From Rhodospirillales bacterium (GTDB taxonomy: Bacteria > Pseudomonadota > Alphaproteobacteria > BOG-932 > Roseiterribacteraceae), in NCBI GenBank assembly GCA_028291365.1, contig JAQGIE010000176.1:1-32507 (forward strand): a DNA stretch of 32,507 bases, written 5' to 3'. This document shows positions 27,536 through 31,297 of this stretch, in pieces. How positions within the stretch are numbered: the stretch's first letter is position 1; every line of letters begins with the position of its first letter. The position numbers were made by a program, and so were the translations under genes. The notes under the pieces were generated by a model. That model was not told the DNA's origin and searched no databases. It worked only from the letters and a program-made list of their open reading frames with translations.

Positions 27536-28825
27536 TTGGACTCGTGCGTTCGCGTGCGGTCTTTGCCCTTGCCTCGGGCCGCTGCGATCGTCCTGCTCGC
27601 GGCGTTGCCCTCGATGGCGCACGCCGCCGATCCCGATCTCGCGGCGGAACTGGCGCAGCTCCGTCGTGAGCTGGCCCGACAGGCCGACCGGCTCAGCGCG
27701 CAGGAGAAGGCCCTGGCAGCGCAGGCCGCGTCGCTGGCCGAGCAGCGCGCCCAGCTCGCGCGGCAGCAGCGCGACCTGGAGACCCGAACCGCGGTGCGCT
27801 TCGACGACCGGCGACTGGCTGCCTTGCGCGGCGCCGGAAGCGCACAGGAGCGGAGCGCCGAGCTGCCCGGCGGTCCCGTCGGCGAAGCGCCCAAGGCGCC
27901 CGAAATCGCCCCGGAATACGCAGCCCTGCCGCAGGACGTTTCCGTCCTGCTGCGCAAGAACCAGTTCGTGATCGAGCCGTCGATCGAATATACGCGCTCG
28001 TCGCAGAACCGGCTCGTGTTTCGCGGCATCGAGGTGACGGCGGGCGTGCAGCTCGGCGTCATCGAAGCGTCCGACGCGAGCCGCGATACGCTGGTCGGCG
28101 TCGCCACGCTGCGCTACGGCGCGACCGACCGGCTCGAATTCGAAGCCCGCGTGCCCTATGTCTATCGCGCCGATCGCATCACCACCTTGCAGCAGCGCGA
28201 CCAGACCGTGTCGCGCAACATCTCGCTCGACGGGCGAGAGCTCGGCGACGTCGAACTGGGCGCGCGCTACCAGCTCAATCGCGGTCTGAACGGCTGGCCG
28301 GTGCTGGTCGGCAGTGTTCGCTACAAGAGCGATACGGGCTCAAGCCCGTTCGAGATTCCGCGCGACGAGTTCGGCATCGCGCAGCGGCTCAATACCGGCT
28401 CGGGCTTTCCCGGCATCGAAGGCGGTTTGACCGCGCTGCTGCCGTCCGACCCGGTCGTGCTCTATGGCAGCTTCAGCTATCTCTACAACATGCCGAAGAC
28501 GATCGGTAAGACGATCGGCGGCGTGCTGGTCGGCGAGGTCGATCCGGGCGATTCGATCGGCATCGGGCTGGGGTTCGGTTTCGCGTTGAATCAGGATTTC
28601 TCCTTCTCGCTCGGGTACCGCCACAACTTCCTGTACGGCACGCACACGCAGCTCAACGATACGAGGCAGCGCTCGACCAGCCTGCATGTCGGCGCGATGA
28701 CGATGGGCCTGTCCTACCGGCTGTCGCAGCGCACGTATATCAACGCCGGCTTCGAGTTCGGCGCCACCAGCGACGCGCCGGACATGCGCTTCATCCTGCG
28801 CGTGCCCTTCACCTTTTCGCCGTAG
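27536..28825 (+). CDS. Outer-membrane beta-barrel protein with N-terminal coiled coil (FapF-like architecture)
   Basis: 429-aa protein. The signal peptide (about 1-31, ending PSMAHAA) is followed by a coiled coil of Ala/Gln/Arg heptads (LAAELAQLRRELARQADRL to QRDLETRTAV, residues 34-88), a Pro-rich linker and a C-terminal barrel of alternating strands (FVIEPSIEYTRSSQNRLVF, LEFEARVPYVYRAD, FSFSLGYRHNFLYG) ending in Pro after FTF. The layout and length match FapF, the Pseudomonas amyloid exporter (about 430 aa), though sequence homology cannot be verified here; the Phenol_MetA_deg/transporter family is the alternative. TTG start with GTGAGGA 6 nt upstream. It converges on the C39 peptidase operon. 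Confidence 0.78.
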   Translation: MDSCVRVRSLPLPRAAAIVLLAALPSMAHAADPDLAAELAQLRRELARQADRLSAQEKALAAQAASLAEQRAQLARQQRDLETRTAVRFDDRRLAALRGAGSAQERSAELPGGPVGEAPKAPEIAPEYAALPQDVSVLLRKNQFVIEPSIEYTRSSQNRLVFRGIEVTAGVQLGVIEASDASRDTLVGVATLRYGATDRLEFEARVPYVYRADRITTLQQRDQTVSRNISLDGRELGDVELGARYQLNRGLNGWPVLVGSVRYKSDTGSSPFEIPRDEFGIAQRLNTGSGFPGIEGGLTALLPSDPVVLYGSFSYLYNMPKTIGKTIGGVLVGEVDPGDSIGIGLGFGFALNQDFSFSLGYRHNFLYGTHTQLNDTRQRSTSLHVGAMTMGLSYRLSQRTYINAGFEFGATSDAPDMRFILRVPFTFSP

Positions 28826-29126
28826 CCGGCGGCTGAGGAAAGACTCGATCGGTTTGCGATTTGCGGGCATTCGGGTCGCCGTAAAGCATTTGCCACAGAG
28901 GACGCAGAGAAACGCAGAGAACACAGAGGTGCCCGTCGTGTGGCCCGATGCGCATGGTTTTCGATTGAGTTCCTGACGCGCGCTTGCGCGCGTCGATCAA
29001 AACCGAGTCTGGTCGTCGGTCGTTGCAGTCCCTCTGTGTTCTCCGCGTTCTCTGCGTTCTCTGTGATGAAATCTGCGATCTCTGACGAAGAAAATTCCTT
29101 GCAGACAGCGTTTTTCGACAGCGCTG
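28826..29126. other. 301-nt intergenic region between convergent units
   Basis: No credible gene. It holds the long inverted repeat 28894-28929 / 29031-29065 and a short unremarkable spacer (about 100 nt) between the arms. Its position between the stops of the barrel gene and the 178-aa gene suggests transcription termination. Confidence 0.75.
28894..29065. repeat. Long near-perfect inverted repeat (CACAGAG...CTCTGTG type)
   Basis: The left arm (28894-28929) begins CACAGAGGACGCAGAG and the right arm (29031-29065) ends GCGTTCTCTGTG. The arms match over about 35 nt with one substitution-like difference in each half and one single-base length difference. Each arm also contains short internal repeats of GCAGAGAA/ACAGAG. 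A similar dispersed repeat is found in many bacterial genomes. Confidence 0.85.
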
Positions 29127-29663
29127 CTAGCGGCGCAGCGCGGCCGCCTGCGCCGCCTGGACGTCGCTGCCGAGCCGGAAGCCCGCGAGATCGTTGTTCC
29201 AGCCGGTCTGGAGCTGGGCGAGGGCAGGGATGGTGAGCGTCACCGAGGTGTCCTGGCGCACATTCTGCCCGTCGGCCGTGTTGAGCACGAAACTGCCGAG
29301 CCGGCCGGGTTCGATCTGGTGCAGCACCGCCGTGGCACCGTTGTTGAGCAGCACGCCGTCGGCACCCGGGGCCAGGTCGACCCGGATACGCGTTGCGTTG
29401 GCGGCGGTGAATGGTGTCGTGCCGGCGCCGGCAAGGCGCTGCACCTGGCTGCCATTCGCGTCCAGCGTCATGCGCGTCTCGAGCGCGACGCGTCCATCGA
29501 CCACCGTGCGCAGCACGACCCCCAGGCTGATTTCGACCCCGTCGATGGAAAAGCCGCCACGCATCTCGTTGAGTTCGGCGTCCGCGAGACGTTGCGCGGC
29601 ATGCAGCGGAAGGGCGGGCGCGAGTGCGAAAGCGGCGACGAGTGCAAGGGCGGAGATCCTCAT
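29127..29663 (-). CDS. Secreted 178-aa protein with Sec signal plus double-glycine leader
   Basis: The signal peptide MRISALALVAAFALAPALPL is followed by a 12-residue leader LADAELNEMRGG (26-37) that fits the C39 recognition pattern LSxxELxxIxGG, and then by a mature part starting FSIDGVEISLGV. The remaining 140 residues have beta-type alternation (GVVLRTVVDGRVALETRM, TSVTLTIPALAQL) and no cysteine. The start overlaps the C39 peptidase stop (ATGA, 29660-29663). I infer that it is cut after Gly37 in the periplasm and is a candidate minor subunit or nucleator. No family is recognised. Confidence 0.82.
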   Translation of the reverse strand: MRISALALVAAFALAPALPLHAAQRLADAELNEMRGGFSIDGVEISLGVVLRTVVDGRVALETRMTLDANGSQVQRLAGAGTTPFTAANATRIRVDLAPGADGVLLNNGATAVLHQIEPGRLGSFVLNTADGQNVRQDTSVTLTIPALAQLQTGWNNDLAGFRLGSDVQAAQAAALRR

Positions 29664-30388
29664 CGCAGCACCTGATCGAGCGAGAAGGTGGTGGTCACCT
29701 GCCACAGGGTCGGCGTATCGCGCATCAAGGTCGCGGCGGAAGCCGGCATGATCGAACCGAAGGGCGAGGTGCGCCCGCGCCATTCAGCGTCGCGATTGAA
29801 GCGGTCGCGCGCGCCGTCGCTGCCGGGCCCACCGCGTATGGCGAGCACGACCCCGGTCCAGCTGCGCGCGAAGTCGTCGGCCGGCATCTGCAACAGGCCG
29901 CGCGCCGGATCGCCGAGCAGCACCCGGCCCTGGCGCAGCCCCTTCACCACGACGAAATGTTTGTACCCCTCGACGTCGAGCAGCGTGATGACGGGCACGG
30001 CAGCCGCCGCCAGCTCGTCGAGTGTGATCCGCCATCCGTCGGCTTCGAACCCCTCGCGCTCGAGGAACAGTTTCATATCGAGCAGGGAAAAACCGACCTG
30101 CTGGATGCGGGCCTGGTCGCCGCGCGCATACATCGAGCGGAATGCCGCTTCCTCGCTGGTGTCGCGGCCATAGTGATGGCGCAGCAGCGTCGCCACCGCG
30201 GCCGAACCGCAACTGAAATCGAAGCGCTGCCGCACCACGGTGCGAAACGGCATCTCGCGCCACGACACGACGCGCACCGCGAAACTGCCGCCGACATCGC
30301 CGCCGGCCAGCCGAACCTCATCGGCTCGTGCCGGCGCGGCGGCGTGCAGGAACATCGCGACCGTCGCGGAGATCGCGATGCGTTTCAT
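29660..30388 (-). CDS. Sec-exported C39 family cysteine peptidase (FapD-like)
   Basis: 242-aa protein with a signal peptide (about 1-22, ending APARA). The C39 fold shows Gln54 (oxyanion), Cys60 (RQRFDFSCGSAAVATLLRHH), His144 (GYKHFVVVKG) and Asp160 (LLGDPARG), a complete catalytic set. No ABC-transporter domains are attached, unlike bacteriocin exporters; it would act in the periplasm. It is coupled by ATGA overlaps to both neighbours, each of which carries a double-glycine leader, so these are the obvious substrates. Stand-alone exported C39 proteins are known as FapD in Pseudomonas amyloid operons. About 70 residues follow the peptidase core (TLMRDTPTLWQVTTTFSLDQVLR at the end, cut here) with unknown role. 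Confidence 0.88.
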   Translation of the reverse strand: MKRIAISATVAMFLHAAAPARADEVRLAGGDVGGSFAVRVVSWREMPFRTVVRQRFDFSCGSAAVATLLRHHYGRDTSEEAAFRSMYARGDQARIQQVGFSLLDMKLFLEREGFEADGWRITLDELAAAAVPVITLLDVEGYKHFVVVKGLRQGRVLLGDPARGLLQMPADDFARSWTGVVLAIRGGPGSDGARDRFNRDAEWRGRTSPFGSIMPASAATLMRDTPTLWQVTTTFSLDQVLR

Positions 30389-30729
30389 CGTCCGGACACC
30401 ACGCTGACGCTCAGTGTTCCCTGCAGCGTGTTGTTGTGCCCGGTATTGATCACCCAATTGCCGATGCCGCTGAATCCCGACAGCGCCCCTTGCGTAAGGG
30501 CGATGTCGCCGGAGCCGATCGCGGCACCGGTGATGCTGTTGCCGCTCGAAATGGCGGTAACGGTCTGCGAGGTGATCGTTCCCTGGTTCGGCACTTCGCC
30601 GCCCGTGAGCCTGGCCAGCTCGTCGGCATGGAGCGCCGGCCGCGCGAACAGGTCCTTGTCGGCTGCCGGCGCGGGTGACGTCGCCGCGGCCACGACCGCG
30701 ACGGCAATCACAATCGATGCGTACTGCAT
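30385..30729 (-). CDS. 114-aa secreted protein with double-glycine leader, candidate fibre subunit
   Basis: The signal peptide MQYASIVIAVAVVAAATSPAPA is followed by the leader LHADELARLTGG (33-44), again fitting LSxxELxxIxGG, then a 70-residue mature part rich in Gly/Ser/Thr/Asn (EVPNQGTITSQTVTAISSG...). It ends in SGFSGIGNWVINTGHNNTLQ followed by GTLSVSVVSG, a motif shared with the Thr/Asn/Ser-rich protein encoded upstream. No cysteine. GGAGAAGAAC precedes the ATG. The stop overlaps the C39 start (ATGA). Size, composition and motif suggest an extracellular fibre subunit; that is inference. Confidence 0.82.
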   Translation of the reverse strand: MQYASIVIAVAVVAAATSPAPAADKDLFARPALHADELARLTGGEVPNQGTITSQTVTAISSGNSITGAAIGSGDIALTQGALSGFSGIGNWVINTGHNNTLQGTLSVSVVSGR

Positions 30730-30793
30730 GTTCTTCTCCTTCGCGATCGGGAGACCGGCGATGCGGGTGCATCGCCGGTCGCAGCGAAAGAGA

Positions 30794-31297
30794 TCAGTGA
30801 CCGAACGTGATGTTGGCGTTGGCGGCCAGCGAGGTGCCGGCCTGGTTGACCGAGCCCAAGCCCGTATTCGCAATCGACGTCTGCACGCCCGAGAAGCCCG
30901 AGAAGGAGCCGCCGCTGTTGGTGATCGCGCCGGTGGCGGCCGATCCGGCCGTGCTGCTGGTGCTGTTCAGGTTGAAGCTCACACCCGAAACCTGACCGCT
31001 CAGCGTCTGGTTGGAGGCCGTCGTGGTCGTCGTGTTCGTCGACCGGTTGGAGTTGTCCGTCGTTGTGGTCGAGCGGTTCGAGTTGTCATTGTTCGAATTC
31101 GACGTGTTGGTCGAACGGTTCGACTGATCGCGGCTGTCGGTCGTGGTGGTGGTCGTCGTCTTCGCCGAGCTGTCCGTGTTGGTGGAGCTGGCATCGCGAG
31201 CGGCTGTCGTCGTCGATGTGACCTGCGCTTGCGCGACGTCCGCGAAGCCGAGCAGCAACGCAACGACAGCCGCACCGGTAAGGAGCTGTGCCTTCAT
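30794..31297 (-). CDS. Thr/Asn/Ser-rich secreted repeat protein, candidate fibre protein
   Basis: 167-aa protein, first of the minus-strand operon. A signal peptide (1-24, ending VAQA) is followed by about 75 residues of low complexity dominated by Thr, Asn, Ser and Asp with three DNSNRST/DQSNRST units, and then a Gly/Ser/Asn-rich C-terminus with FSGFSGVQTSIANTGLGSVN and a hydrophobic NITFGH end. The C-terminal motif resembles that of the 114-aa protein. There is no double-glycine leader. GGAG lies 7 nt before the ATG. Asn/Ser-rich sequence of this kind is frequent in amyloid or adhesive fibre proteins. It is separated from the next gene by 64 nt and is presumably cotranscribed. Confidence 0.8.
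   Translation of the reverse strand: MKAQLLTGAAVVALLLGFADVAQAQVTSTTTAARDASSTNTDSSAKTTTTTTTDSRDQSNRSTNTSNSNNDNSNRSTTTTDNSNRSTNTTTTTASNQTLSGQVSGVSFNLNSTSSTAGSAATGAITNSGGSFSGFSGVQTSIANTGLGSVNQAGTSLAANANITFGH
31038..31129. repeat. 20-nt repeat units encoding (D)xSNRST
   Basis: Three units on the minus strand, at 31038-31057, 31068-31087 and 31110-31129 in plus coordinates, encode DNSNRST, DNSNRST and DQSNRST. Synonymous differences between the copies (for example AACTCCAACCGG against AACTCGAACCGC) indicate an older, selected protein repeat, not a recent slippage. Confidence 0.85.

Follow-up and report, generated by a model that had tools for sequence, protein, structure and literature searches.

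A probable Fap-like secretion locus, sister to Fap, in an alphaproteobacterial genome, with predicted double-glycine leaders on the partners of its C39 peptidase

The Fap system of Pseudomonas (FapABCDEF) includes a periplasmic C39 peptidase, FapD, and an outer-membrane protein, FapF (PDB 5o65), that joins a coiled coil to a 12-strand-type barrel. FapD activity is essential for secretion of the Fap amyloid, and a FapD Cys mutant blocks FapC secretion (PMC5557850). What FapD cleaves is a published open question, as Fap proteins have been stated to lack a canonical C39 site (PMC5557850 and PMC6173800). The N terminus of FapE yielded no peptides, and processing of the FapF linker is possible (PMC5557850); Fap work also ties the FapF coiled coil to plug release. 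A 2013 survey confined Fap to beta-, gamma-, and deltaproteobacteria and counted further fapD/fapF matches as nonspecific hidden Markov model hits (PMC3792158), and a 2018 paper noted co-located fapD/fapF beyond classical Fap (PMC6173800). Here, we describe a five-gene locus in a 32,507-nucleotide stretch of a Rhodospirillales genome (GCA_028291365.1, contig JAQGIE010000176.1; the whole stretch is referred to as "the window"), which probably encodes a Fap-like secretion system from a clade sister to Fap, its C39 peptidase being predicted to process leader-bearing partners.

The window encodes, at positions 27536-31297, a repeat protein, a small protein, a C39 peptidase, a FapE-like protein, and a coiled-coil-plus-barrel protein (Table 1). 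The first four follow one another in that order on the minus strand, and the plus-strand barrel gene converges on them. ATGA stop/start overlaps couple the small protein to C39 and C39 to the FapE-like protein, and these three genes therefore make up one operon. A hydrophobic Sec-type signal starts all five proteins, and there is no cysteine in the repeat, small, and FapE-like proteins. The five Sec-signal genes, the double-glycine leaders, the C39 peptidase, and the coiled-coil barrel were thus found where an initial annotation, made from the DNA letters, had placed them, and its remark on missing cysteine also held. Promoter and terminator scans of the locus gave nothing above chance, and no FapA-like gene was recognized in it, FapA being often absent in Fap itself.

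As modeled, the barrel has the FapF fold. It matches the NCBIfam FapF family (NF058560) over its full length (residues 16-427; 6.8e-40) at 137 bits versus an equivalog cutoff of 700, and a profile built from 11 related barrels, of which two belong to true-Fap-clade loci, matches FapF (5o65) at 3.8e-87. In the AlphaFold model (predicted local distance difference test [pLDDT], 86.8), a coiled-coil helix (33-88) is followed by a short helix (91-98) and the barrel, and the best Foldseek match of the model is again 5o65 (E 3.8e-22; template modeling score TMt 0.83). A COG4313-type uptake channel was considered and rejected, as FapF matches rank far above 4rl8 and the linkage to C39 also speaks against it. 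The peptidase is a stand-alone, Sec-targeted protein, neither fused to nor beside an ATP-binding cassette (ABC) transporter, and matches PF03412 (2e-20) and FapD (NF058616; 1.6e-44, 152 bits versus an equivalog cutoff of 330), while the profile of its family matches the double-glycine protease 6mpz (1.5e-14). Its Cys60, His144, and Asp160 are invariant in the alignment of relatives. It is the only PF03412 match in the source genome, which therefore has no C39 ABC exporter for the leaders to serve.

For the FapE-like protein, the direct match to NF058559 is weak (E=0.0016, residues 8-55; 17.7 bits versus a cutoff of 250), and the family profile aligns with Pseudomonas FapE at an hhalign probability of 94.7 (E 6e-8). 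This homology spans the leader and about 40 residues, including the strands that follow; the rest has diverged. The model (pLDDT 85) comprises a leader helix, beta strands, and a long C-terminal helix, with predicted helix 28-35 ending at the leader GG. There was no PDB match at E<=0.001 for this confident model, and the fold is possibly an unsolved one. The matches to FapD, FapE, and FapF all fall below the curated cutoffs, so that the proteins are relatives, not equivalogs; the resemblance to Fap in kind that the initial annotation had drawn is borne out by both homology checks, and a FapE relative is present besides. At three other loci (L052:6345-7358, L047:5837-7234, and L045:4643-5584), the gene after C39 encodes 314 to 466 amino acids, with a large additional region surrounding the FapE-type leader.

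Two further systems share parts with the locus. The putative Fil pilus of Acinetobacter, compared here by FilB and FilC alone, likewise combines a C39 protein with a FapF-type barrel (FilB, 8.9e-30; FilC, 4.2e-25), but the scores (104 and 89 bits versus cutoffs of 475 and 630) are weaker than those of the Fap matches. C39 ABC exporters such as PCAT1 and ComA have the same protease fold and double-glycine leader logic; unlike them, the locus lacks an ABC transporter, and its protease and substrates would be periplasmic after Sec export.

The classical double-glycine leader has hydrophobic residues at positions -12, -7, and -4, an acidic residue at -8, and GG at -2 and -1. Judged by its residues, the consensus EAVSDEELAELRGG, which occurs in the small subunit, the FapE-like protein, and about one-third of the FapF linkers, the window's included, fits this leader. 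The small and FapE-like proteins carry it as LHADELARLTGG and LADAELNEMRGG, the predicted break after the leader falling between PALHADELARLTGG and E in the former and between RLADAELNEMRGG and F in the latter. The motif was cross-tested with position-specific scoring matrices (PSSMs), each built from proteins other than those tested. With the FapE-like matrix, a leader was found in the small proteins of 53 of 62 loci (p<0.05); here, the window's row is its repeat protein, and the window's small-protein leader was read separately. With the small-protein matrix, the first gene downstream of C39 scored at p<0.01 in 69 of 76 loci, versus 3 of 100 control genes (at p<0.05 this matrix gives 16/100 controls, above nominal). 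A matrix built from both families picked out the N-terminal region of FapF at p<0.05 in 31 of 87 proteins, 24 of them at p<0.01, versus 1 of 87 in the barrel half. All these counts overstate independent events, as the rows are related, and the invariant RGG in one alignment (A4) was not used as evidence because its rows were chosen by that motif. The linker motif of the window's own FapF, RFDDRRLAALRGAG (shuffle p=0.003), had been missed in the initial annotation; elsewhere, such motifs cluster in Cupriavidus, Lysobacteraceae, Rhodanobacteraceae, and several single alphaproteobacterial lineages.

Pseudomonas FapE also carries the leader, as LKDAEMADLRGR, with a match to the combined PSSM in 6 of 6 proteins, none of which was used to build the matrix. 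The leader is kept across classes of Proteobacteria at a defined residue, with the last position changed in Pseudomonas FapE, and this motif suggests an answer to what FapD cleaves. In Pseudomonas FapA, the leader was detected in 0/6 proteins at p<0.05 (one at 0.053), though SDxDIxxIxSG looks alike by eye. A canonical leader on defined partners makes the substrate question one for a peptide-cleavage assay. A more distant clade that combines C39 with a FapF-like barrel (L056:879-3118, L057, and L061, with more distant relatives at L058-L060) has, at the first three loci, a small upstream protein whose leader takes the form LSATQMDAVAAGG. The leader logic may therefore predate the two Fap clades. 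At a locus of the true Fap clade (L182:1840-9539), the FapE and C39 genes are duplicated, and a 108-amino-acid protein has the leader SLEDGDLASIRGRF.

Among the exported subunits of Fap, FapB and FapC have several Gln/Asn-rich amyloid repeats. The family of the small protein ends in a C-terminal unit, GAFxxxxGIxTVIQNTGNNVxIQ, which bears a weak likeness to both FapB repeats (hhalign E 8e-4, probability 24%). Attempts to identify the small protein as a counterpart of FapA (hhalign gave nothing) or its family with FapC (no hhalign match) failed. The Fap-type unit is also present in the window's repeat protein (residues 122-157, E=0.0017), which the initial annotation had overlooked; thus, the small and repeat proteins have one unit each. 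Across the same loci, repeat proteins contain it in 18 of 188 upstream entries (>=150 amino acids, the window being counted twice), versus 1 of 344 controls, and the repeat protein of one relative has 19 copies, versus 1 in the window's. This shared Gln/Asn-type unit supports, but does not prove, a fiber of Fap-type repeats. Serine, threonine, and asparagine make up 72% of residues 25-95 of the window's repeat protein, and its gene has no DNA tandem array.

A lack of co-occurrence of the barrel and the operon in related genomes had been set beforehand as an outcome that would refute the initial annotation; barrel and C39 do occur together there. When named genomes were scanned with the C39 alignment, there were >590 matches, and among the best 80, a FapF-like barrel lies within 8 kb of C39 in 75, the other 5 being on short contigs. 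The nearest relatives among these are from Caulobacteraceae and Sphingomonadales. Most loci have the same plan: an N/T/S-rich repeat protein, a small protein, C39, a FapE-like protein, and FapF. Loci of this type were found in Alpha-, Beta-, and Gammaproteobacteria, Acidithiobacillia, Desulfuromonadia, and Myxococcota. The first suggestion of a possible new fiber-secretion system is therefore not supported, given that related loci are common in Alphaproteobacteria and that co-located fapD/fapF had been noted in 2018 (PMC6173800). Nor is there support for the view that an alphaproteobacterial version would be new: Alphaproteobacteria account for 23 of the named barrel-bearing loci, and a FapF-family match was obtained in 26 of 385 genomes sampled from the window's class. 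Three alphaproteobacterial genomes (L042, L043, and L044) have C39s of the true Fap clade together with FapF and, at least in part, with neighbors resembling FapE and FapB.

In the C39 tree (118 rows), Fap loci form one group of 19 rows (support 99/97) that includes 3 alphaproteobacterial ones. The window's C39 falls in a sister clade of 93 rows (99/92), within which its exact neighbors are not settled by the tree; another genome of the window's class (G335) groups almost identically with Pelagibius, in support of this class being the Alphaproteobacteria. The fapF gene runs in the direction of C39 in 19 of 19 Fap-clade loci and opposite to it in 52 of 83 sister-clade loci, and inversion is therefore a common trait of the clade rather than a peculiarity of this genome. 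Thus, of the different gene order and inverted barrel that had been remarked upon, the inversion stands, as the usual state in the sister clade, and the difference in order does not, since D then E is the order in Fap. The sister branch is separate from Fap, widespread, and apparently undescribed. A search of the open literature, with subscription papers and preprints outside its range, found no description of the clade's substrates or leader. As far as the D-F pair is concerned, the co-located fapD/fapF homologues outside classical Fap (PMC6173800 and PMC3792158) very probably represent these same loci; the accessible passages of both papers give co-location alone, and the leaders, FapE-like gene, small subunit, and repeat protein are described here. 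The comparison suggests that FapD/FapF matches dismissed as unspecific include an overlooked family of envelope secretion loci.

The mechanism that we propose builds on presence, linkage, homology, conserved catalytic residues, and a shared leader, all computed here, and borrows Sec export, a trimeric pore, and the need for C39 activity in secretion from Fap (PMC5557850 and PMC6173800); cleavage, secretion, and amyloid formation are what we infer, as are the terms "fiber" and "amyloid" that the initial annotation used for the window's product. All five proteins would cross the inner membrane by Sec. The periplasmic C39 would then recognize its leader, L/V(-12)-S-D-x-E(-8)-L(-7)-x-x-L(-4)-R-G-G, in both the small subunit and the FapE-like protein and cut after it. 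In the window and about one-third of its relatives, C39 might also cut the pore linker and release or reset the gate, though this step is less secure; cleavage of the linker, positioned as it is between coiled coil and barrel, would alter gating. After maturation, the subunits would leave with the Thr/Asn/Ser-rich protein by way of a trimeric FapF-like barrel and assemble on the cell surface. The small protein, which has one Fap-type unit, would be a nucleator or a minor subunit, and the repeat protein would be the bulk subunit. A broader proposal is that one leader code serves three partners of the sister clade's C39, namely, a nucleator-like subunit, the FapE-like protein, and the pore (as a gate switch), and that Pseudomonas FapE is the substrate of FapD; it is tentative, and we regard it as somewhat doubtful.

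Several observations weigh against a Fap-like locus with this processing scheme. In the window, the repeat protein contains a single weak unit and a low-complexity core of a kind not typical of amyloids. Most loci lack the FapF-linker motif, which hence cannot be obligatory, and several of its matches are in close relatives (Cupriavidus and Lysobacteraceae). In Pseudomonas FapE, R or K occupies position -1, in contrast to the G or A of the classical leader. Mass spectrometry peptides were found throughout FapA-D (PMC5557850). C39 or barrel was present in 1 of 5 genomes examined from the window's family, so the role is either dispensable there or recently acquired, and the literature that we found contains no report of cleavage, secretion, or a fiber for any sister-clade member. 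The same core composition, with little hydrophobicity and a single weak amyloid-like unit, would suit a soluble or nonamyloid adhesive matrix made by the same machinery, with the Thr/Asn/Ser-rich protein forming a surface polymer that is disordered and perhaps glycosylated. Relatives with up to 19 unit copies at the same gene position, and the weak resemblance of the unit to FapB repeats, make this the less likely product, although it is the most serious of the alternatives.

It is improbable that the locus is a true Fap system with ordinary divergence. Relatives of FapD, FapE, and FapF are all present and D precedes E, yet the C39 lies outside the Fap clade, all three scores are far under the NCBIfam cutoffs, FapA and FapC are not recognizable, and fapF is inverted. 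The locus also differs from Pseudomonas Fap in that its small subunit has its own double-glycine leader, the leader motif ends in RGG instead of RGR or RGK, and the main protein is Thr/Asn/Ser-rich. Noncatalytic C39-like domains occur in type 1 secretion (PMC5557850), and the C39 could by analogy with the C39-like domain of HlyB be a chaperone or docking factor that binds leaders without cutting; we give this little credence, given that Cys, His, and Asp are invariant and that Pseudomonas FapD loses secretion when its Cys is mutated (PMC5557850). Export of a bacteriocin or microcin, which the leader motif and C39 fold might bring to mind, is highly improbable for a stand-alone, Sec-targeted C39 in a genome with no C39 ABC transporter, with Sec signals preceding the leader in the substrates and a FapF barrel linked in nearly all of the best 80 loci. 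A Fap-like secretion locus of the sister clade remains our preferred interpretation.

TABLE 1 Positions of the locus features within the window
Feature	Position	Strand	Basis or remark
FapF-like outer-membrane barrel with N-terminal coiled coil, 429 aa (amino acids)	27536..28825	+	TTG start
Leader-like putative C39 site RFDDRRLAALRGAG in FapF-like linker, residues 88-101, directly after coiled coil	27797..27838	+	PSSM
FapE-like secreted protein, 178 aa	29127..29663	-	NF058559, hhalign
Predicted double-glycine leader RLADAELNEMRGG of FapE-like protein, residues 25-37	29553..29591	-	Fits PSSM
Periplasmic C39 peptidase, FapD-like, 242 aa	29660..30388	-	PF03412, NF058616
Small secreted protein with leader and one Fap-type unit, putative FapB-like minor subunit, 114 aa	30385..30729	-	Family alignment
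Predicted double-glycine leader PALHADELARLTGG of small protein, residues 31-44	30598..30639	-	Family alignment
Thr/Asn/Ser-rich secreted repeat protein, candidate main subunit, 167 aa	30794..31297	-	S+T+N content

Between the barrel and FapE-like genes (28894-29065) lie paired inverted repeats of the AGAGAACGC type, a dispersed repeat element whose 18-base pattern occurs at 56 places genome-wide, versus 0 for the reversed control. Contamination of the contig was considered and is unlikely, as many further contigs of this genome contain the repeat as well.

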